Positions 46,137 through 53,693 of a DNA stretch of 64,000 nucleotides are shown here, in pieces. The DNA lies in contig CP031518.1 of NCBI GenBank assembly GCA_017161305.1, positions 1,612,001 through 1,676,000 of the forward strand, written 5' to 3'. The DNA comes from Treponema ruminis (GTDB lineage: Bacteria > Spirochaetota > Spirochaetia > Treponematales > Treponemataceae). Each line of letters begins with the position of its first letter. Positions within the stretch are counted from its first letter, which is position 1. The notes beneath the pieces are model-generated. The model made no database searches, was not told the DNA's origin, and was given only the letters and a program-made list of their open reading frames with translations. A program made the translations under genes and the position numbers.

Positions 46137-46214
46137 TTACTTCGCCTCAATCTCCTGCAACTCAAAGCGGTATTTCTGCTTTACTTCCGGGTATTTTACA
46201 TGGTCGACTTCGCT
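46137..46214 (-). pseudogene. C-terminal remnant of the DUF1653 gene split by the element
   Basis: Reading the minus strand from 46214 gives SEVDHVKYPEVKQKYRFELQ and then EIEAK and TAA (46139-46137), the typical DUF1653 C-terminus. It has no start codon or promoter of its own. Joined to the fragment at 53384-53545, it restores a continuous 79-codon gene. Confidence 0.8.
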
Positions 46215-46243
46215 CAATTATCCTAATATTCGGATAACCGATG

Positions 46244-46328
46244 TTATCCTAGCAAATTTATTATCCTCATAATTTCCACTATCTGCTTATAGTATAAACA
46301 AATAAAAATGAAAATATGAGGATAAAAT
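46244..46328 (+). repeat. left terminal inverted repeat of the element (85 bp)
   Basis: Nearly identical to the reverse complement of 53296-53380. It contains TTATCCT (46244), TTATCCTCAT (46261-46270), the central ATCTGCTTATAGTATAAACA block, and ATGAGGATAA (46316-46325). An extra 27 bp with TTATCC and GGATAA lies outside it, up to the chromosome junction. Confidence 0.9.
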
Positions 46329-46442
46329 ATACAAGAGTCAAACCATTAGAAGATAATTTTGGCCCTTACCTCACAAGAGAAAACTGAGGTTTCCGTGTTG
46401 TGCGTATTGCCAATAAATAAAAATTATCAGTTAAAATCAATC

Positions 46443-46474
46443 AAAAAGACTTGTCACATCTGGCAAGTCTTTTT
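46443..46474 (+). terminator. perfect hairpin with T-run
   Basis: AAAAAGACTTG (46443-46453) and CAAGTCTTTTT (46464-46474) form an 11-bp stem. It lies among decayed sequence inside the left part of the element and could stop transcripts entering from the chromosome side. Confidence 0.7.
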
Positions 46475-46494
46475 GATCTTAAAAAAAATGCAGT

Positions 46495-46640
46495 GTAACC
46501 GCCACACTAAAGTATGCGGAAAAATCGACAGCGTAAAAAATCCTCTTGCAGGAAAAATCACAGCAGATTCAATCGGTCAGATAATTATGGAAGAAGAAAT
46601 CTGCGATAAATCAAAAACGCAAATTATCTGCAAAGAATAA
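46495..46640 (+). pseudogene. short degenerate coding remnant
   Basis: The plus-strand frame ending at TAA 46638-46640 reads KIDSVKNPLAGKITADSIGQ and IIMEEEICDKSKTQIICKE. It looks like a protein C-terminus, with a terminator hairpin just upstream and no start codon. I cannot name the family. Confidence 0.3.
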
Positions 46641-46658
46641 AATATCAGGAGAAATAAA

Positions 46659-46706
46659 ATGGCAATTACAGTAAATCTTCGTTACACAGGAAGACTTCCA
46701 GAATAA
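46659..46706 (+). pseudogene. 15-codon remnant of a monooxygenase-like N-terminus
   Basis: SD CAGGAG precedes ATG 46659, which reads MAITVNLRYTGRLPE and then stops. The start resembles small antibiotic-biosynthesis-monooxygenase-type proteins, which suggests a truncated gene whose ribosome-binding site is still intact. Confidence 0.3.
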
Positions 46707-46712
46707 AAATAT

Positions 46713-46741
46713 GAGCTTCAGTCCTACTTGGGCTGAAGCTC
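46713..46741 (-). terminator. terminator of the radical-SAM operon
   Basis: GAGCTTCAG with TCC, a short loop, then GGGCTGAAGCTC form a 12-bp stem including G-T pairs. On the minus strand it is followed by a T-rich run (ATATTTTT). It lies 34 nt after the radical-SAM B stop. Confidence 0.75.
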
Positions 46742-46774
46742 CTTTGTGCGATTATCTTCCGGTTTATTCTTCCA

Positions 46775-47698
46775 TCAAGGATTATGTATTACATTTCTCT
46801 TTCCACTATTGGCAGTTCCTCTTACTTCTTCGTGGTAAAAGTAATTTACGATTGTTGGATGTCCTTTCTCTACTCTCTCATACGGAGTTTCATTATCAAC
46901 AAACCTGCAATCATACTTTTTAGCCAGCTCTTCTGCTTTCTTTTCCAGCGCTTCAAAATAGCTGCGGTTCTTTTTGTTATAGATTTCGTCATACAACGGC
47001 ACCAGATCCGGATATTTATCGGAAATATATTTCATGATATCTGCTTTAAAACCTCCGCGAAGATTCAGATTCTCAAGCCATACAAGGTCACACTGATCTT
47101 TTGTCCTGTCTATGATTGCTTCTATATCCGTAATCCCCGGGAACACGGGTGAAATGAAGCAAATTGTACGAATGCCTGCCGCATATACCTCTTTCATTGC
47201 AGCAAGCCTTCTTTCTATGCTTACTGCCGCATCCATATCATCTTTAAACTCTTCATCGAGAGTATTGATTGACCATGATACTGTAAGTCTGCTATTTTCA
47301 TTGATCTCTCTTAGCAGATCCAGATCTCTTAGTACAAGGTCTGACTTTGTGCAGATAAGTATGTCCGCACCACTGTTCTTTAGTTCTTCCAGAAGTCTTC
47401 TTGTATTTTTATATGTTTCCTCTAGCGGATTATAACCATCCGTAACTGTTCCAATGATTACCTTCTGGCCGGCATACTTCTTTGGATTCTTTACTTCAGG
47501 CCAGTCTTTCACATCCATGAAAGTTCCCCATTCCTCCGTATGCCCTGTAAAGCGTTTCATAAAAGATGCGTAGCAGTATTTACAGGCATGGGGACACCCC
47601 ACATAGGGATTCACCGAATATCCTCCAATAGGAGTATTCGATTTTGTCATTACACTTTTTGTTTCTATATGATTTACTTTGATTTCTGGTTGTTCCAT
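46775..47698 (-). CDS. radical SAM protein, SPL-like (mobile pair protein B type)
   Basis: 307 residues. The radical-SAM cluster motif CPHACKYC is at residues 35-42 (C-x3-C-x2-C), inside GGYSVNPYVGCPHACKYCYA, as in spore-photoproduct-lyase-like proteins. The middle (VIIGTVTDGYNPLEETYKNT, ILICTKSDLVLRDLDLL, LTVSWSINTLDEEF) is the SPL-type barrel. It binds a 4Fe-4S cluster and S-adenosylmethionine; the substrate is unknown. Its start lies 25 nt inside the preceding radical-SAM gene. This gene order matches what is annotated elsewhere as the 'radical SAM mobile pair', a naming I recall but could not check. Confidence 0.85.
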   Translation of the reverse strand: MEQPEIKVNHIETKSVMTKSNTPIGGYSVNPYVGCPHACKYCYASFMKRFTGHTEEWGTFMDVKDWPEVKNPKKYAGQKVIIGTVTDGYNPLEETYKNTRRLLEELKNSGADILICTKSDLVLRDLDLLREINENSRLTVSWSINTLDEEFKDDMDAAVSIERRLAAMKEVYAAGIRTICFISPVFPGITDIEAIIDRTKDQCDLVWLENLNLRGGFKADIMKYISDKYPDLVPLYDEIYNKKNRSYFEALEKKAEELAKKYDCRFVDNETPYERVEKGHPTIVNYFYHEEVRGTANSGKRNVIHNP

Positions 47699-48372
47699 AT
47701 CCTCTGTTCCTCCAGCACTTTGTTAAAAGCATCCGGCATTTCCTGTATCATTTCTTCTCCCATAATCGGAACAAGATCTTCTTTCCAGAATACAGGAATG
47801 TTCAGTTCATGAGCCTGTTCTGTCAATGAATAAACCCACCCGGGATCTGTTTTAACAGTCCTGCTCTTTGCACCTGTCATGGTTCCCACCACAATCCAGT
47901 CAATGCCTGTAAGATCAACCTTACCCGGATCATCGAACAAAGGCTCAAAGGTAACATGATATTTTTTTGCCTTCACATTGCTCCGTAGTGCATCAATACG
48001 CCATAACTCAGACTTTCTCGTAACTGTAACGCCAAACCATGCATTATCAAGATTTGTTTCAAAAGACAGAAGATCCGGTCGTTTGGTAAGAAAAAGAAAC
48101 TGGTGCTGAGGATTCTCTGCTATCTTTTTAAAGACTTCCTCTCGCCATTCCTCATGCCAGCCCGAGAGATCGCTCATGCCGGTCAGCAGAAAATTCTGCG
48201 GCTTTTTCTTTTCCATCATACGAAGCTTGCCTTGAAAAAACTGTGGCTTTTCAAAATCATCTATGATGTGATAACGCCTCGTATTGTTTCTGGCATAGCA
48301 GTACGGACATCCAACAGTGCACCCTATAACAAGATTCATGTTCTGAATTTGATCTTTAATACAGATACTCAT
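47674..48372 (-). CDS. radical SAM protein (mobile pair protein A type)
   Basis: 232 residues. The cluster motif CTVGCPYC at residues 18-25 comes right at the N-terminus, followed by YARNNTRRY. LLTGMSDLSGWHEEW, FLFLTKRPDLL and WFGVTVTRKSELWRIDALR fit the Gp37/DUF5131-like radical-SAM group. It ends with DWIVVGTMTGAKSR and a basic tail. Its ATG overlaps the MarR stop by 4 nt (ATGA), and its 3' end overlaps the B gene, so the three form one tight operon. Function unknown; it likely acts with the B protein. Confidence 0.82.
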   Translation of the reverse strand: MSICIKDQIQNMNLVIGCTVGCPYCYARNNTRRYHIIDDFEKPQFFQGKLRMMEKKKPQNFLLTGMSDLSGWHEEWREEVFKKIAENPQHQFLFLTKRPDLLSFETNLDNAWFGVTVTRKSELWRIDALRSNVKAKKYHVTFEPLFDDPGKVDLTGIDWIVVGTMTGAKSRTVKTDPGWVYSLTEQAHELNIPVFWKEDLVPIMGEEMIQEMPDAFNKVLEEQRIWNNQKSK

Positions 48373-48806
48373 TTGTCACTCCATTCCTCAAGGTTTACCC
48401 TGATGCGGTTAAGATACTCTTCAAACTGAAGAATCTCTTTATCCGTAAAATCACGATAATAAATATTCCCCATCTCATTGGATACGGAGTCATAAGCTTC
48501 TTTAAGTTCTTTGGTTTTATCTGTGAGGAACAGAAGAGTTTTTCTCTTATCAGCTTCATCCGTTTTGCGGCTTATCAGTCCGTTTTTTTCCATCCGCTCA
48601 AGCATGGTCGTAAGTGAAGTAATTGCAAGTCCGCTTTTCTCGGAAATAATTTTAATAGGAACGCCATCTTCCTGCCATAAGACATACAGAATCCTTCCCT
48701 GAGCTCCGTTAAATGCATCAATGTTTTTTTCTGCCAGTATCCTTTCAAATATACGATCACCCAGCTGTTTTATTTTTGTAACAAGAAATCCACCATTTGT
48801 CTTCAT
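48369..48806 (-). CDS. MarR-family regulator of the radical-SAM pair
   Basis: 145 residues with a MarR winged helix: ILYVLWQEDGVPIKIISEKS, GLAITSLTTMLERMEKNGLI as recognition helix, and SRKTDEADKRKTLLFLTDKT as wing. A strong SD (AGGAG) precedes the ATG. A perfect 14-bp inverted repeat (48811-48824 and 48842-48855) covers its promoter and leader, so autoregulation is likely. It is the first gene of the operon MarR, rSAM A, rSAM B. Confidence 0.85.
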   Translation of the reverse strand: MKTNGGFLVTKIKQLGDRIFERILAEKNIDAFNGAQGRILYVLWQEDGVPIKIISEKSGLAITSLTTMLERMEKNGLISRKTDEADKRKTLLFLTDKTKELKEAYDSVSNEMGNIYYRDFTDKEILQFEEYLNRIRVNLEEWSDK

Positions 48807-48810
48807 AATT

Positions 48811-48855
48811 AAATACTCCTATATCGTAGTTTTATACTACCATATAGGAGTATTT
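48811..48855 (-). promoter_or_regulatory. palindromic operator in the MarR-rSAM promoter
   Basis: AAATACTCCTATAT and ATATAGGAGTATTT are perfect inverted copies separated by 17 nt, which themselves contain GTAGT/ACTAC around TATAAA. The copy nearest the gene includes the Shine-Dalgarno AGGAG. MarR binding would block both promoter and leader. Confidence 0.7.
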
Positions 48856-48958
48856 GTATCAAGCACACATATCATAACTTCCAATTTTGTGTTCCAGCAT
48901 TCATCACGACAAACAGGAATTTGTATCACAGAACCATCAGCAATGTTCCGGCTCCAAT

Positions 48959-49219
48959 TTAGAATGAAGGACGGACATTTTGAAAACATCTGTCCTTATT
49001 ATCATGAATTGTGAAAACGGACTGACCTCTGATCCATTCATCAATAAACTTCATCTCTTTAATCTTATAATTTCCGATGAGGCTAGATTGAAAGCGGCCG
49101 TCAAAGACCTCTTTTGGGAAAATGTGACTGTATGTAACCCGCCAGACTTCATCTAAAAGAGTATACCATTCATATCCGTCTTCTTTTCTAACGTATCCGC
49201 AAATTAAATTTAAGTTTAG
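48959..49219 (-). pseudogene. GNAT-acetyltransferase-like fragment
   Basis: An uninterrupted minus-strand frame without a start codon reads GYVRKEDGYEWYTLLDEVWR then VTYSHIFPKEVFDGRFQSSL and stops at TAA 48961-48959. The W-x-x-TY-x-x-I-x-P pattern resembles the first helix-strand region of GNAT acetyltransferases. It is truncated at both ends relative to a full gene, and identity is tentative. Confidence 0.35.
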
Positions 49220-49235
49220 CTAATTATAGCACACA

Positions 49236-49393
49236 TTAAATCCATTCTCCACGAATTTTATAAGGCGTAATTTCAATATTCCATGGAAGAAGTTTTTTCC
49301 AGTCCTCTTTTGTCTCACAGAAAAGTGCTTATTCAAAAACATTCCTGAGATAGTCTTTTGAATTCAGGCCGTTAAGTTTGATAGTAGATAATA
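49236..49393 (-). pseudogene. IS66-family transposase C-terminal remnant
   Basis: The minus strand reads TIKLNGLNSKDYLRNVFE, a stop codon, then ALFCETKEDWKKLLPWNIEI and TPYKIRGEWI. The end pattern (LNGLNxxDYL ... LLPWNI) is typical of IS66 TnpC transposase C-termini. The in-frame stop and missing upstream part show that it is dead. Confidence 0.55.
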
Positions 49394-49439
49394 ATTTTTT
49401 TCGATAATGAATATAACTAAATGTATTTAGGAGGTCTTC

Positions 49440-51323
49440 ATGGAAAATTATGAAGCAATATTCAAAACTTTTATCGAAAAATACTCTCAAAATGGGTATT
49501 CAAATTCACTTTGCAGCTCATACTATAATCTATTAGCTGCAGCAACTTCGTTTTTCAGTCGTAATGGTGTGTATATAACTGAAGAAAGTATTCAAAAGTT
49601 TACAAAAAATTATTCTGTAAGAGTAAAAAAAATCTACTGCAGAATATTAAGAGAATTAGCAATATTCAATGCTACTGGTTTTGTAAAGCATAAACAACTA
49701 CGGCCATTATTGAAATTGGATACTTATTATTTATTGTATTTGGACAATTACCTGACAAATACGTTTTCTAATAAAAAATATCGCAACTCTATCAGGAATA
49801 TGATAGTTCCTTTTTTTGAGACCTTACAACATGAACAGATTAAGGTTAGTGATATAAATTACATCGATTGTATGCGTGTTTATAAGGAATTGGACTTACC
49901 TTTATCTGTTCTAGGAAGAGATAATTTTGATCAACATGTTCGAGGTTTTCTGCATTACATTTCAGATATTGGTATAAACGAGCGAAAACTTTGGATTGTA
50001 TTTAATCATTGGAATCCGCCATATTTGTTTTCGGTTGAAAAATTAAGCCGTGAGTCAAAAGAAGAACTTTCTTCTATTAGAAAATTCCATTTTAAAACAC
50101 GATCGGAATTGTGGGATTCAATAGATTCTTTGAAAATTATCTTTGAGAATTGCGGTTATGCAAAAAAAAATTATGCAGGACTAAAACGGACAATTGAATT
50201 ACTATATGCCTTTTTTGATATGAATGATATGGACTATTCCATTGAATATTCATGGATTTGGTTTAATGAGATAGAAAAAAAACTTAAAACAGACAGAAAC
50301 TGGTTCAAAAGAACAGTCAATATTATTGAATTGTTCTTTCAAGATGAAATATCAACATCTTCGACCTTTATTCCTAAGCGTCGTTTATTTATTCCACAAA
50401 TAGAATATTTATATAGAAGAAAAACGGTAAAAAGGGAATCTATTTTTAATAAATTAACACCATATTATCAATCCTTAATCAAAGCTTTCCAAAAATATAA
50501 ACAACTAGAAGGCAGATGCGAAAAGACCGTAAAAAATTATCAGTATGCCCTTCAAAAGTTTACTTTGTATTTGATTTCTAGAAATATTCTAAACATAAAA
50601 GATTTAACAAGAGATGTTTTATCTGACTTTATCTCATCAGATTTCAACGATTTTCCTGGAAAACTAGTGAAAATAAGGATGTTTTTATATTTTCTGTATG
50701 AGACACAATTAATGAGTACAGACTTGTCTGAATGTGTTCCTGTAAAAACAGCTTCAAAAGAAAAAAATGTTACAGTATTAAATAAAAATGAATTATTGCA
50801 GATTGATAATTATCGGAAAAATTGTAAATCTGCTTCTGAGTATAAAAATGCAGCTGGAGTCCTGTTGGGGCTTTTTATGGGCTTAAGAGCTTGTGATGTC
50901 GCTAATCTGAAATTTACTGATATAGATTGGAAAAGTAAAATTCTACATTTAATTCAGACCAAAACAAAAGTTCAATTAAACCTTCCGATTCCAAATCCTG
51001 TATATGAAGCCCTAGTTCTATATATAAAAAAAGGAAGACCCAAAGCTAATAGCCCTTACATATTCTTAGAAGACAATCCTCCTTTTAAGAAAATTGGTTA
51101 TCAAAGCGGTAAATACATGATTAAAGGAGTTCTAAAAAACAGGATTAATTTTCATATTTTACGAAGAACATTTGCTTCAAATATTCATGAAACATCAAAA
51201 TCATTGAATACAGTTATCAATTGTCTTGGGCATACGGGAGAAACAAGTGTTGGCAAGTATGTGAACATTTCGAAAAAGATGATGGAAGAATGTACTCTTT
51301 CCTTATCGGATTTACATATATGA
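49440..51323 (+). CDS. tyrosine recombinase 1 of the trio (large)
   Basis: 627 residues, first of three tandem site-specific recombinases. The N-terminal 330 residues are AT-rich-encoded, helical and of unknown role. A core-binding domain (about 335-435) and the catalytic domain (about 440-620) follow. Catalytic residues are visible: R in GLRACDVANLKF, K in QTKTKVQLN, H-x-L-R-R in FHILRRTF, H in LGHTGETS, and Y in GKYVNI. The size is close to TnpB of Tn554 and larger than typical RIT recombinases. SD GGAGG precedes the ATG. The next recombinase starts 10 nt after its stop. Confidence 0.87.
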   Translation: MENYEAIFKTFIEKYSQNGYSNSLCSSYYNLLAAATSFFSRNGVYITEESIQKFTKNYSVRVKKIYCRILRELAIFNATGFVKHKQLRPLLKLDTYYLLYLDNYLTNTFSNKKYRNSIRNMIVPFFETLQHEQIKVSDINYIDCMRVYKELDLPLSVLGRDNFDQHVRGFLHYISDIGINERKLWIVFNHWNPPYLFSVEKLSRESKEELSSIRKFHFKTRSELWDSIDSLKIIFENCGYAKKNYAGLKRTIELLYAFFDMNDMDYSIEYSWIWFNEIEKKLKTDRNWFKRTVNIIELFFQDEISTSSTFIPKRRLFIPQIEYLYRRKTVKRESIFNKLTPYYQSLIKAFQKYKQLEGRCEKTVKNYQYALQKFTLYLISRNILNIKDLTRDVLSDFISSDFNDFPGKLVKIRMFLYFLYETQLMSTDLSECVPVKTASKEKNVTVLNKNELLQIDNYRKNCKSASEYKNAAGVLLGLFMGLRACDVANLKFTDIDWKSKILHLIQTKTKVQLNLPIPNPVYEALVLYIKKGRPKANSPYIFLEDNPPFKKIGYQSGKYMIKGVLKNRINFHILRRTFASNIHETSKSLNTVINCLGHTGETSVGKYVNISKKMMEECTLSLSDLHI

Positions 51324-51333
51324 GAGGATACTG

Positions 51334-52278
51334 ATGAAGAATACTATATTTTCAAGTTCACTTGGATATTTGTTCGAAGGGTTTATACGGCAGAAACAAA
51401 ATGAAGGTTTTAGTTACGAGGAGCAAATTTCTCGACTAAAAAATTTTGATAAATATTGTTTAAAAAAGAATATTACTGCTGATTCTATAACAAAAGAAAA
51501 CCTGAGAGACTATTTGACTATAAAAGAAACTGAATCAAAAAATTCGTTTTATGCACGATTCTGTTTAATTCGACAATTTTTGATTTATATGAATGCACGG
51601 GGGATTCATGTTTCTATACCTAATATTTCAATTTCAAAATCTAAGCCAGTTCCTTTTTTAATGACTGATGAGCAGGTAGAGGCATTTATTTCTAGTGTTG
51701 ATAAGAATCCACCAAAGAGAAATTTTAATTATTCTGTGTTTTTCAGACTGCTATGTACAACAGGATTAAGAGTAAACGAGGCTCTTAAGTTACGAATTAA
51801 TGATTATGACGAAATTAATAAAAGTTTGACTGTCATACATGCAAAAGGAAACAAGGATAGAATTATTTATCTGGCAGATGATATGAATCAGTTGCTAAGA
51901 ACTTATTTGAACAGCAGGAAGAGAAGGTCACCATTCATATTCTATGGAAATGATATAAATAAACCACATACTTATGGAGTTGTGAGTAAAACTTTTAGAA
52001 AAAGATGGATGCAAACTAAATTTTATACGAATACAGGGAAAAATCCAACTGTTCATTCTCTAAGACATTATTTTGTAATTAAAAGAATCAATTTATGGGC
52101 TTCCGAGGGAATCTCTATTAATTCAATGATTCTTTATCTATCGAAACATCTGGGGCATGCAAGTCCAAATGAAACTTATTATTACTATCACCTCATTAAG
52201 GATTCCTTAAAAATAATGTCTACAAAGGATGTTACAGGAAAAAAAATTATGGAAGGTATTAAATATGAAGAAGAATAG
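51334..52278 (+). CDS. tyrosine recombinase 2 of the trio
   Basis: 314 residues. The SAM-like core-binding domain covers about residues 1-105 and the catalytic domain about 110-305. The full active site is visible: R in TTGLRVNEALKL, K in HAKGNKDRI, H-S-L-R-H, LGHASPNE, and a tyrosine within ETYYYYHLI. The adjacent tyrosines make the nucleophile ambiguous. The 3' end overlaps the start of recombinase 3 by 14 nt, so translation is probably coupled. Confidence 0.88.
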   Translation: MKNTIFSSSLGYLFEGFIRQKQNEGFSYEEQISRLKNFDKYCLKKNITADSITKENLRDYLTIKETESKNSFYARFCLIRQFLIYMNARGIHVSIPNISISKSKPVPFLMTDEQVEAFISSVDKNPPKRNFNYSVFFRLLCTTGLRVNEALKLRINDYDEINKSLTVIHAKGNKDRIIYLADDMNQLLRTYLNSRKRRSPFIFYGNDINKPHTYGVVSKTFRKRWMQTKFYTNTGKNPTVHSLRHYFVIKRINLWASEGISINSMILYLSKHLGHASPNETYYYYHLIKDSLKIMSTKDVTGKKIMEGIKYEEE

Positions 52279-53293
52279 TGAATTATTTTTTTCTAAGACA
52301 AAAAATTTTTTAACTGTGTATTTAGTTAAACAATGTAATAAGAGTGTTCATACGGTTAAGTCATATAAAGACACATTAACAATATTCAGAAGATTTATTG
52401 GTGAGGTTGAAAATATTTCAATCAAGACATTTAAATTTTCAGATTGCAAGCGTGATGTATTGCTTAAGTTTATTGAATATTTAAGAAATGGCAGAGCCGC
52501 AGTAAGCACAATCAACAACAAATTGGCAGGCATACGTGCTTATTTATGGTATTGTTCTGACGAAGATGTAGAATTGCAACCAATAGCAATTATGGCTTCA
52601 AGAATTCCTTTATTAAAGGAACCCAAATTGATAAGACCTATAATCTCACCTGAAATTATGACCGATTTTCTTTCGGGTGTTTTTTCTCATACATCAAAAA
52701 GTAAAAGAGATCAATTAATGCTTATGCTGCTGTATCAGACTGCTGGAAGAGCAAGTGAGATAACTGCAATTAAAATAAAAGATATTATACTGTCAGAAAG
52801 AATTATTCTTTTTCATGGGAAAGGGGATAAGGAAAGAATTGTAACTTATGATGAAGTAGCAGCTTTACACTTAAAGGCATTCCTTAAAACAGACCATAAA
52901 AACATGAATCCTGATGATTATTTATTTTTCACAAAAATAAAAGGAGTTAAATATCAAATGTCTTTAGGAAATGTTGAGCGCATTGTAAATAAATATGCAG
53001 AGTTACTAAAAGAGCTACATCCAGAATTACCTGAAAGTGTTTATCCACATATGTTTCGAAGAACCAGAGCAACTAATTTATATCAGGATGGAGTTGATTT
53101 AGAGCTGATTTCGAGATATATGGGCCATTCCTCTACTGTAACAACAAGAATATACGCACAACCATCTATGGCTATGTTAAAAGAAATTATGGATCGAGCA
53201 AATCCGTTTTCAGAATACGATTCTACCAATAAAGATGAATTTGATAACTTAACAGAAAATGATATTATAGAGATGTGTGGTTTAAGACCATAA
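52265..53293 (+). CDS. tyrosine recombinase 3 of the trio
   Basis: I chose ATG 52265, which overlaps recombinase 2 by 14 nt and gives 342 residues starting MKKNSELFFSKTKNFL. The active-site set is complete: R in QTAGRASEITAIK, K in HGKGDKERI, H-M-F-R-R, MGHSSTVTT and the nucleophile in RIYAQPSM. It is closest in look to XerC/D-like proteins. Only 2 nt separate its stop from the right terminal inverted repeat, typical of a compact recombinase-trio element. Confidence 0.88.
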   Translation: MKKNSELFFSKTKNFLTVYLVKQCNKSVHTVKSYKDTLTIFRRFIGEVENISIKTFKFSDCKRDVLLKFIEYLRNGRAAVSTINNKLAGIRAYLWYCSDEDVELQPIAIMASRIPLLKEPKLIRPIISPEIMTDFLSGVFSHTSKSKRDQLMLMLLYQTAGRASEITAIKIKDIILSERIILFHGKGDKERIVTYDEVAALHLKAFLKTDHKNMNPDDYLFFTKIKGVKYQMSLGNVERIVNKYAELLKELHPELPESVYPHMFRRTRATNLYQDGVDLELISRYMGHSSTVTTRIYAQPSMAMLKEIMDRANPFSEYDSTNKDEFDNLTENDIIEMCGLRP

Positions 53294-53295
53294 TA

Positions 53296-53380
53296 ATTTT
53301 ATCCTCATATTTTCATTCTTATTTGTTTATACTATAAGCAGATATTGAAAAATATGAGGATAATAAATTTATTAGGATAA
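53296..53380 (-). repeat. right terminal inverted repeat of the element (85 bp)
   Basis: The reverse complement matches 46244-46328 over the full 85 bp with only a handful of mismatches. Its outer end supplies the codons TCC TTA TCC TAA that now terminate the interrupted DUF1653 gene. Confidence 0.9.
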
Positions 53381-53545
53381 GGACAGGAACATGTCTTTCG
53401 GGCGGATCCAGAGCGAACAGTCTCCGTAAAGACGGCGGTAAACGACATATTCTTCTTGAGTTTCTGAGTGAAGGGCTACATCCTCGACGATGTAGAGATT
53501 TCCTTTAAAGTGCTTGTAGATTCCGTGGATTTTTAATGTGTTCAT
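53372..53545 (-). pseudogene. DUF1653 gene, N-terminal part truncated by the element
   Basis: ATG at 53545. It reads MNTLKIHGIYKHFKGN, then HSETQEEYVVYRRLYGD and WIRPKDMFL, the DUF1653 core, and ends after three foreign codons (SLS) encoded by the element's terminal repeat. The missing 25 C-terminal codons are found at 46214-46137. The 57-residue product could still fold in part. Its -10 box is 6 nt from the ATG. Confidence 0.85.
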
Positions 53546-53551
53546 GGAGAT

Positions 53552-53557
53552 ATTATA
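53552..53557 (-). promoter_or_regulatory. -10 box giving a probably leaderless DUF1653 transcript
   Basis: Minus strand: TATAAT, gap ATCTCC (6 nt), then the ATG at 53545. No SD of normal spacing is possible. Confidence 0.5.
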
Positions 53558-53576
53558 GCATGTTCTTGTATTTTTA

Positions 53577-53663
53577 GGGGGCGTTACGGGAGATTTTCCC
53601 CCGTAGAAGGGGTAGCGCAAAACGCAAAGCGGTTGGAACGAGGGGAAGAATCGCTTTCCCCGC
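53577..53663 (+). repeat. GC-rich intergenic repeat, copy A (upstream of pbpC)
   Basis: An 87-bp element starting GGGGGCGTTACGGG, with AGAAGGGGTAGCG in the middle and CGAGGGGAAG plus CTTTCCCCGC at the end. It can fold into GGGG/CCCC-type hairpins. A second copy lies at 63824-63905 on the other strand. Both copies read toward a downstream start codon (pbpC here, fic there). Confidence 0.75.
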
Positions 53664-53693
53664 ATTTTTGGGGATTATTTTTCCGCTTCGTGC

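Follow-up and report, generated by a model that had tools for sequence, protein, structure and literature searches.

Recombinase in trio (RIT) elements carry three tyrosine recombinase genes between terminal inverted repeats (TIRs). The available part of PMC3414803 mentions a RIT inverted repeat with an overlapping palindromic sequence, and finds the need for three recombinases hard to understand. RitA has two sequential core-binding domains and RitC has an extra C-terminal helix, according to the accessible sections of PMC8138268. The portion of PMC10214605 at hand states that, to its authors' knowledge, RIT transposition has never been reproduced in the laboratory, and it describes SE, GInt and Tn554 elements as having a large recombinase and 6-bp footprints. 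Here we describe a RIT in a 64,000-nt stretch of Treponema ruminis CP031518.1, called the window, and all positions are those of the window unless another locus is named. The window's own genome (G000) is a single contig of 2,895,582 bp with a listed completeness of 81%. The element extends from 46218 to 53380 and has the gene order ritA-ritB-ritC and TIRs of 85 bp. We consider it quite probable that this is a cargo-bearing RIT with a passenger cassette, which would move via 6-bp crossovers around a 20-bp palindrome.

An earlier note on this DNA, made from the sequence alone, had recognized three tandem plus-strand tyrosine recombinases with full active sites and had assigned the element to the RITs. 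Both statements are borne out. The recombinases of 627, 314 and 354 amino acids (aa) each have the complete set of R, K, HxxR, H and Y residues (RitA R483, K508, H572, R575, H598 and Y607; RitB R146, K171, H241, R244, H275 and Y284; RitC R174, K198/K201, H274, R277, H300 and Y309), and the catalytic columns of all three are invariant across five reference RITs. With subfamily models built from these five RITs, the first recombinase scores 91.8 bits for RitA, 28.2 for RitB and 3.5 for RitC. The second scores 114.8 bits for RitB, 40.8 for RitA and 38.5 for RitC, and the third scores 126.3 bits for RitC, 64.1 for RitA and 20.8 for RitB. The assignments by blastp agree. Its one large recombinase and the junction hexamer of 6 bp do recall Tn554 and SEs as described in the available text of PMC10214605, and the element could be a relative of Tn554, SE or GInts and not a RIT. 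This is very improbable given that the three recombinases are catalytically complete, follow the order A-B-C and each score best in their own RIT subfamily, and that the end layout is the same as in reference RITs; Tn554, SE and GInt are set apart here by their descriptions only.

The inverted repeats reported in the earlier note are real: they are 93% complementary over 85 nt, as compared to 28 nt at 71% for the next-longest inverted pair in the same 11 kb. Their tips are built as in other RITs, with two repeats set 17 bp apart, and the 20-bp palindrome lies six bases outside the TIR, at one end only. The end palindrome mentioned for RITs in the available part of PMC3414803 is present in the window element and in the references. 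The boundaries proposed earlier, 46217 and 53383, are good to a few bases, as 46218 is the first base of the palindrome and 53380 the last of the right tip, with hexamers outside both. The element splits a DUF1653 gene. The right piece matches PF07866 positions 1-48 of 62, the remainder lies beyond the left end, and the two flanks keep the reading frame when put together. DUF1653 matches are found in 15 of 59 genomes of the genus, and at 13 places, in as many genomes, the gene is continuous across the insertion point (the second copy in the window's genome is included, and two of the places contain a stop).

Copies of the element were sought by DNA search in 200 genus genomes with follow-up of the loci, and these copies reveal a rule for the two ends. 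Read from flank to element, the window has CTTC-GCTCAA-palindrome-CCGATG-TIR at the left end and ATGTTC-CTGTCC-TIR at the right end. Three other copies sit in DUF1653 in the opposite orientation: L023 has CTTC-GGACAG-palindrome-CCTATG-TIR at its right end, and the left ends of L047 and L048 are ATGTTC-CTGTCC-TIR and ATGTTC-CTGTCA-TIR, respectively. At a second target, L045 has ATGTAT-TCGATG-TIR on the right and CTTT-CATCGG-palindrome-TTAAGT-TIR on the left, while the left end of L046 is CTTT-CTGTGC-palindrome-CTGGCA-TIR. On the ATGT side of the target 4/4 ends are bare, and on the other side 4/4 have the palindrome, even though L023 has the opposite orientation to the window.

The exact palindrome occurs at five places in the 200 genomes, namely four element ends and one place where it stands alone. 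The lone copy (L088) belongs to the genome of the window itself and lies in the second target gene, as ACATGTTT-GCACAG-palindrome-CCTATG-AAAGGC, at the point where L045 and L046 hold the element. A palindrome at a target gene without an element, and one always on the same target side, are what would be expected if it were the target's own pre-existing 20-bp site, beside which RITs insert. We find this unlikely. The palindrome is absent from uninterrupted DUF1653 homologues, where matches cross the point without a gap in the listed lengths, and from an intact homologue of the second target, and its exact copies number only those five. Moreover, it is built on the element's own tip sequence, TTATGCCG in proteobacterial RITs and TTATCC in Treponema, which indicates that the palindrome follows the element. 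A search for further lone palindromes found TTATCC-N8-GGATAA in 29 of the 200 genomes, as compared to 11 for the reversed control. Gene-less TIR copies (miniature inverted-repeat transposable elements) were also considered and rejected: the exact tip is found in 6/200 genomes, always at an element copy or a contig end. With 1-2 mismatches the tip is found in three further genus genomes, and the reversed control pattern gives one match.

A second palindrome of the window's genome, TTATCCGGAATTCAGGATAA (C1:1216616-1216635; L088 2575-2594), is some 0.87 kb away from the lone copy in L088 and has the hexamer TATCTG on both sides. Similar palindromes follow TTTATCTTG in non-coding stretches of L162, L151 and L166, with no RIT trio detected in the vicinity. 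The RIT models detect no trio in L168, L169 and L170, and TTATCCGGAATTCAGGATAA is not counted as a further lone palindrome.

The hexamers at the junctions suggest that short sequences are exchanged between sites. Read in gene sense, the two DUF1653 hexamers of the window (CTGTCC and TTGAGC) both code for Leu-Ser, and they are present in uninterrupted DUF1653 homologues of other genomes (L015 and L013), as if one of them were derived from another host. Only rows L012, L013, L015 and L018 of the DUF1653 DNA alignment were used, because the alignment mixes strands and the L020 and L021 stretches look misplaced. The inner hexamers CCGATG of the window and CCTATG of L023 also occur in L045 and L088, at the second target. 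Under a uniform model, the probability that two of four inner hexamers match is about 6e-6.

The rule extends to other RITs. TIRs were located in 8 of 14 reference loci, and in six of these eight a 20-bp palindrome is present at one end and not at the other; this count is without pHG1, which has nested copies, and without Geobacillus L110, which has no annotation. In S. baderi, where the script gave no TIR, the palindrome is visible by eye. At an IS66-type site the bare end is on the same side in 8/8 loci (L137, with no tip found, is not in this tally). L106, L114, L133 and L136 have the palindrome at the ritC end, and L115 has it at the ritA end; in L132, L134 and L135 only the ritC-side end is seen, and it is bare. 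At a DUF3489-like site in viral contigs the fixed-side rule is seen in the 5/5 loci with both ends visible, with L126 reversed relative to L124, L125, L130 and L131; three of the eight viral loci (L127-L129) show one end only. Pfam confirms IS66 for L106 and DUF3489 for L131. The 6-bp gap was imposed by the search pattern for the viral loci, and it was not imposed for L106, L114, L115, L133 and L136. Taken over four comparable target genes, the bare end is always on one fixed target side and the palindrome on the other, and at three of the four the element is found both ways round. The palindrome-side rule was not found in the literature searched, including the available parts of PMC3414803, PMC2864759, PMC8138268 and PMC10214605; the founding RIT papers may hold part of it.

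RIT-type ends are present in contigs L124-L131, which are classed as viral in IMG/VR. Five of these eight have a whole trio and both ends, in a DUF3489-like gene.

These junctions are consistent with a mechanism in which the recombinases would exchange strands over a 6-bp overlap at the TIR-N6-palindrome and at target sites. The junction hexamers would then act as coupling sequences, which the element could bring along from sites it occupied before. One fixed side of the target would be joined by the bare TIR, the other by the palindrome. The predicted circular form, TIR-N6-palindrome-N6-TIR, is nearly symmetric, so that either hexamer could be used; the element could then enter either way round while the palindrome stays on one and the same side of the target. 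If excision took place between the bare-end crossover and the palindrome/TIR crossover, a lone palindrome would remain, as seen in L088, and this palindrome could be a scar or a landing pad. The same excision would yield a circle without the palindrome, and re-entry of that circle would give a RIT that is bare at both ends, as in two references. We propose more tentatively that RITs as a class use 6-bp crossovers around the palindrome as a third, neutral end, with three recombinases each tuned to a TIR, palindrome or target half-site. If true, this would allow entry to an asymmetric target in either direction and reuse of the palindrome scar as a landing pad, and the half-site tuning would answer why three recombinases are needed.

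Several points weigh against the crossover mechanism. Neither movement nor a circle has been observed. The hexamer match was spotted after the fact, and shared descent could contribute to it. L023 has one end on its contig, and the contigs of L047 and L048 break at or soon after the end. Two of the eight reference RITs with TIRs (Rhodococcus and P. phymatum) have no palindrome at either end, and TIRs were not found in 6 of the 14 reference loci. At the IS66-type site, the recombinase genes of L134 are degenerate and its end was assigned by 98.6% DNA identity. Other IS66 and DUF3489 flank likenesses were judged by eye, and some of the compared insertions may share descent and hence are not all independent.

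An intact trio was found in two Treponema genomes only, that of the window and RGIG28/G140. The trio of RGIG28/G140 (L023 and L026) has 98.8% DNA identity to the window trio and is in the same DUF1653 gene in the opposite orientation. Upstream of it lies different DNA with a DUF1858 gene and a gene of no assigned function, there is no left TIR on the contig, and this 87%-complete metagenome-assembled genome has no rSAM (radical SAM) protein A match above the cut-off. G001 (L045) has the left part with the rSAM cargo at 98.3% DNA identity and a whole ritC, with other genes in place of ritA and the start of ritB. Judged by eye, two of these other genes are presumably istA/istB of an IS21 type, and the gene beside the second target, which holds this element, is one we take to be crcB. 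G015 (L046) has the left end and cargo at 98.9% DNA identity at the same second target, and no trio is seen in the 18 kb read. By eye, genes resembling a conjugation module (VirD4/VirB11-type) are downstream of this cargo, in the expected trio position (L046 12861-17032). G200 (L047) and G124 (L048) have left ends in DUF1653, and their contigs stop about 86 and 450 bp into the element. Loss of the trio in part or whole in G001 and G015, together with the gene fragments between cargo and trio in the window, could mean that the rSAM cassette landed in a RIT already in decay and that nothing is now mobile. Such a dead relic is quite unlikely, as the window recombinases are all full length with catalytic residues, and the trio is nearly identical to an oppositely oriented copy in another genome.

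The large RitA had been singled out as unusual, and it remains so at 627 aa. For the two sequential core-binding domains of RitA, the comparison gave only a weak match of T1 residues 4-82 to the RitA N-terminus (4.3 bits). A Pseudobutyrivibrio rumen plasmid encodes a recombinase of 559 aa that aligns to RitA residues 101-543 (23%, E 2e-32) and ends there, which shows that a long form, apparently truncated, exists elsewhere. The annotated ritA frames of two Rhodobacterales RITs (L117 1478-3010 and L120 1463-2989) imply 510 and 508 aa, so the length of RitA varies beyond the usual range. At E 1e-20 the window RitA is matched in 3/247 phylum genomes, and outside its own genome the matches start at residue 325 or later (at least 325). 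Its structural relatives by sequence are two distant, XerA-type chains. No near relatives were found in viral contigs, and none of the 449 matching plasmid records or the 25 matching phage records covers 80% of it.

The cargo is an operon of a MarR-type regulator and rSAM proteins A and B on the minus strand, with 4- and 25-nt overlaps as first described. The three genes are adjacent and all exceed the curated NCBIfam cut-offs. As the earlier note expected, the rSAM pair does occur in related elements elsewhere, in G001 with an interrupted trio and in G015 with the left end. Its further proposal, that the element ferries the pair between gut bacteria and spirochaetes, is not supported in that form: the cassette occurs without the element on Selenomonas ruminantium plasmid pSRC6 and in the genus genomes G018 and G028, and the RGIG28/G140 trio has other DNA upstream. 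The pSRC6 copy of this 2.1-kb cassette (46744-48883) is 98.7% identical in DNA with edges within 1 bp, the G028 edges are also within 1 bp, and the stretch shared with G018 is slightly longer (46688-48915). Its presence on a Selenomonas plasmid means that the cassette crosses phyla, and the rSAM pair seems to be a passenger that moves separately and has a history of its own. Matches to the rSAM A model exceed the cut-off in 11/200 genus genomes, three of which have the TIR tip (G000, G001 and G015). Protein B is covered to at least 80% in 26 of 67 matching plasmid records, and 23 of these 26 are from Bacteroides, Parabacteroides or Phocaeicola.

A palindrome before marR is kept in the Lachnospira copy and two genus copies with about 72% DNA identity (L009, L078 and L080), and its retention in divergent copies supports autoregulation. 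MarR would probably repress the cassette at this palindromic operator until a small molecule releases it. The regulator has zero cysteines and is thus unlikely to be a thiol sensor of the OhrR kind. Neighbours of the cassette elsewhere include flavodoxin and aldo-keto reductase genes (L077 and L078) and a CatA-like acetyltransferase gene (pSRC6), and they are a weak hint of redox or xenobiotic stress. A role of the rSAM pair in stress, repair or detoxification is a guess. The name of the radical SAM mobile pair was not found in the literature searched, and rSAM B has no solved structural relative by sequence at E 0.001. A defence role for rSAM A was considered from the PADLOC candidates PDC-M30B (110 bits) and PDC-M41B (107 bits), which are too little for a claim. 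On Parabacteroides plasmid L010 (7548-9861), a gene for a metallo-beta-lactamase-fold hydrolase overlaps rSAM A by 4 nt and occupies the position that marR has in Treponema, Lachnospira and pSRC6.

At the cassette edges, a sequence about 45 bp long lies behind the stop codon of a gene that varies from locus to locus (EamA transporter, rSAM B or CatA-like; window 48883-48930, L077 about 177-224 and L008 11048-11094). An integron origin of the cassette was considered since TTTGTCGKGATGAAYGYTGGAACA trails different genes at the edges, and it was set aside, with no attC array on this evidence. TTTGTCGKGATGAAYGYTGGAACA occurs once per genome in 5/7 genomes, each time beside the cassette, its folding is not clearly better than that of shuffles (z -0.04, -1.29 and -0.65), and an exact search of viral contigs with a longer form gives no match. 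Between cargo and trio, the last 54 bases of a GNAT gene remnant (48957-49016) recur at 100% identity in nine or more other genomes of the genus, so that the full GNAT gene seems to have been recently mobile in the genus. The stretch 49193-49357 has repeats of about 80-88% in many of 71 matching genus genomes and by eye resembles the tail of an IS66 transposase gene.

Table 1. Features of the element and its flanks, in window positions (strand + or -; a point marks features without strand).
Feature	Position	Strand	Basis or remark
3' piece of interrupted DUF1653 gene (SEVDHVKYPEVKQKYRFELQEIEAK; stop 46137-46139)	46137..46211	-	Joined flanks in frame; match to query residues 94-119
Outer hexamer GCTCAA (gene sense TTGAGC)	46212..46217	.	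Read from sequence
20-bp palindrome TTATCCTAATATTCGGATAA, outside left TIR	46218..46237	.	
Inner hexamer CCGATG, separating palindrome and TIR	46238..46243	.	
Left TIR	46244..46328	.	85 nt, 93% complementary to right TIR
rSAM cassette, unit common to pSRC6 at 98.7%	46744..48883	-	
Radical SAM mobile pair protein B, 307 aa	46775..47698	-	TIGR04470, 549.3 bits (cut-off 410)
Radical SAM mobile pair protein A, 232 aa, DUF5131	47674..48372	-	TIGR04471, 447.8 bits (cut-off 355); PF07505
MarR-type regulator of rSAM pair, 145 aa	48369..48806	-	TIGR04472, 282 bits (cut-off 240)
Palindrome across predicted marR promoter, probable MarR operator	48811..48855	.	20-nt arms 95% complementary
GNAT acetyltransferase gene tail, remnant	48957..49016	+	98% DNA match to end of GNAT gene in same genome; Pfam GNAT in L076 homologue
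ritA, 627 aa, long N-terminal part	49440..51323	+	
ritB, 314 aa	51334..52278	+	
ritC, 354 aa as listed	52229..53293	+	True start may be later ATG at about 52265 (by eye)
Right TIR, bare end	53296..53380	.	No palindrome outside
Outer hexamer GGACAG (gene sense CTGTCC)	53381..53386	.	
5' piece of interrupted DUF1653 gene	53387..53665	-	PF07866 match at positions 1-48 of 62 only

The RITs on C. necator pHG1, S. meliloti pB and P. piscinae pP13_b are like the window element in gene order, subfamilies and catalytic residues. Reference RITs also share its ends, with tip repeats 17 bp apart and, at one end, a 20-bp palindrome and 6 additional bp. The window element is nevertheless an unusual RIT: it has cargo and a 627-aa RitA, and it is 7.1 kb long and not about 3.4 kb. 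The outer TIR bases are 7137 bp apart, unlike the roughly 3.5 kb that is typical of RITs without defining them, and the eight reference RITs with both TIRs measure 3.4-3.7 kb. The distance from the left TIR to ritA is 3196 bp as compared to 125-762 bp in those eight, the TIRs are 85 bp as compared to 24-63 nt, and RitA of the five references is 365-413 aa, a typical and non-defining range. Its G+C content is 30.0% in the trio and 40.2% in the cargo, with 46.5 and 48.7% in the flanks. The 4-8 bp gene overlaps that the available part of PMC3414803 gives as characteristic, a typical and non-defining trait, are not seen here; ritA and ritB have a gap of 10 nt, and ritB and ritC overlap by 50 nt as listed or by 14 nt from the later ATG. 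The host is a spirochaete, unlike those of the reference RITs. By the description in the available part of PMC10214605, SE, GInt and Tn554 resemble the window element in their choice of target and in a junction hexamer of 6 bp. SE and GInt with four proteins and Tn554 with TnpA/B/C differ, by their descriptions, from the three complete recombinases, long TIRs and external palindrome of the window. The end layout, fixed-side rule, exchanged hexamers and lone palindrome provide concrete junctions for RITs, and they predict the effects of gene removal. The radical SAM mobile pair (TIGR04470/04471/04472) is here carried inside a RIT, which has about 3 kb of extra DNA that includes this mobile radical-SAM system, and the eight reference RITs with both TIRs have no comparable room.

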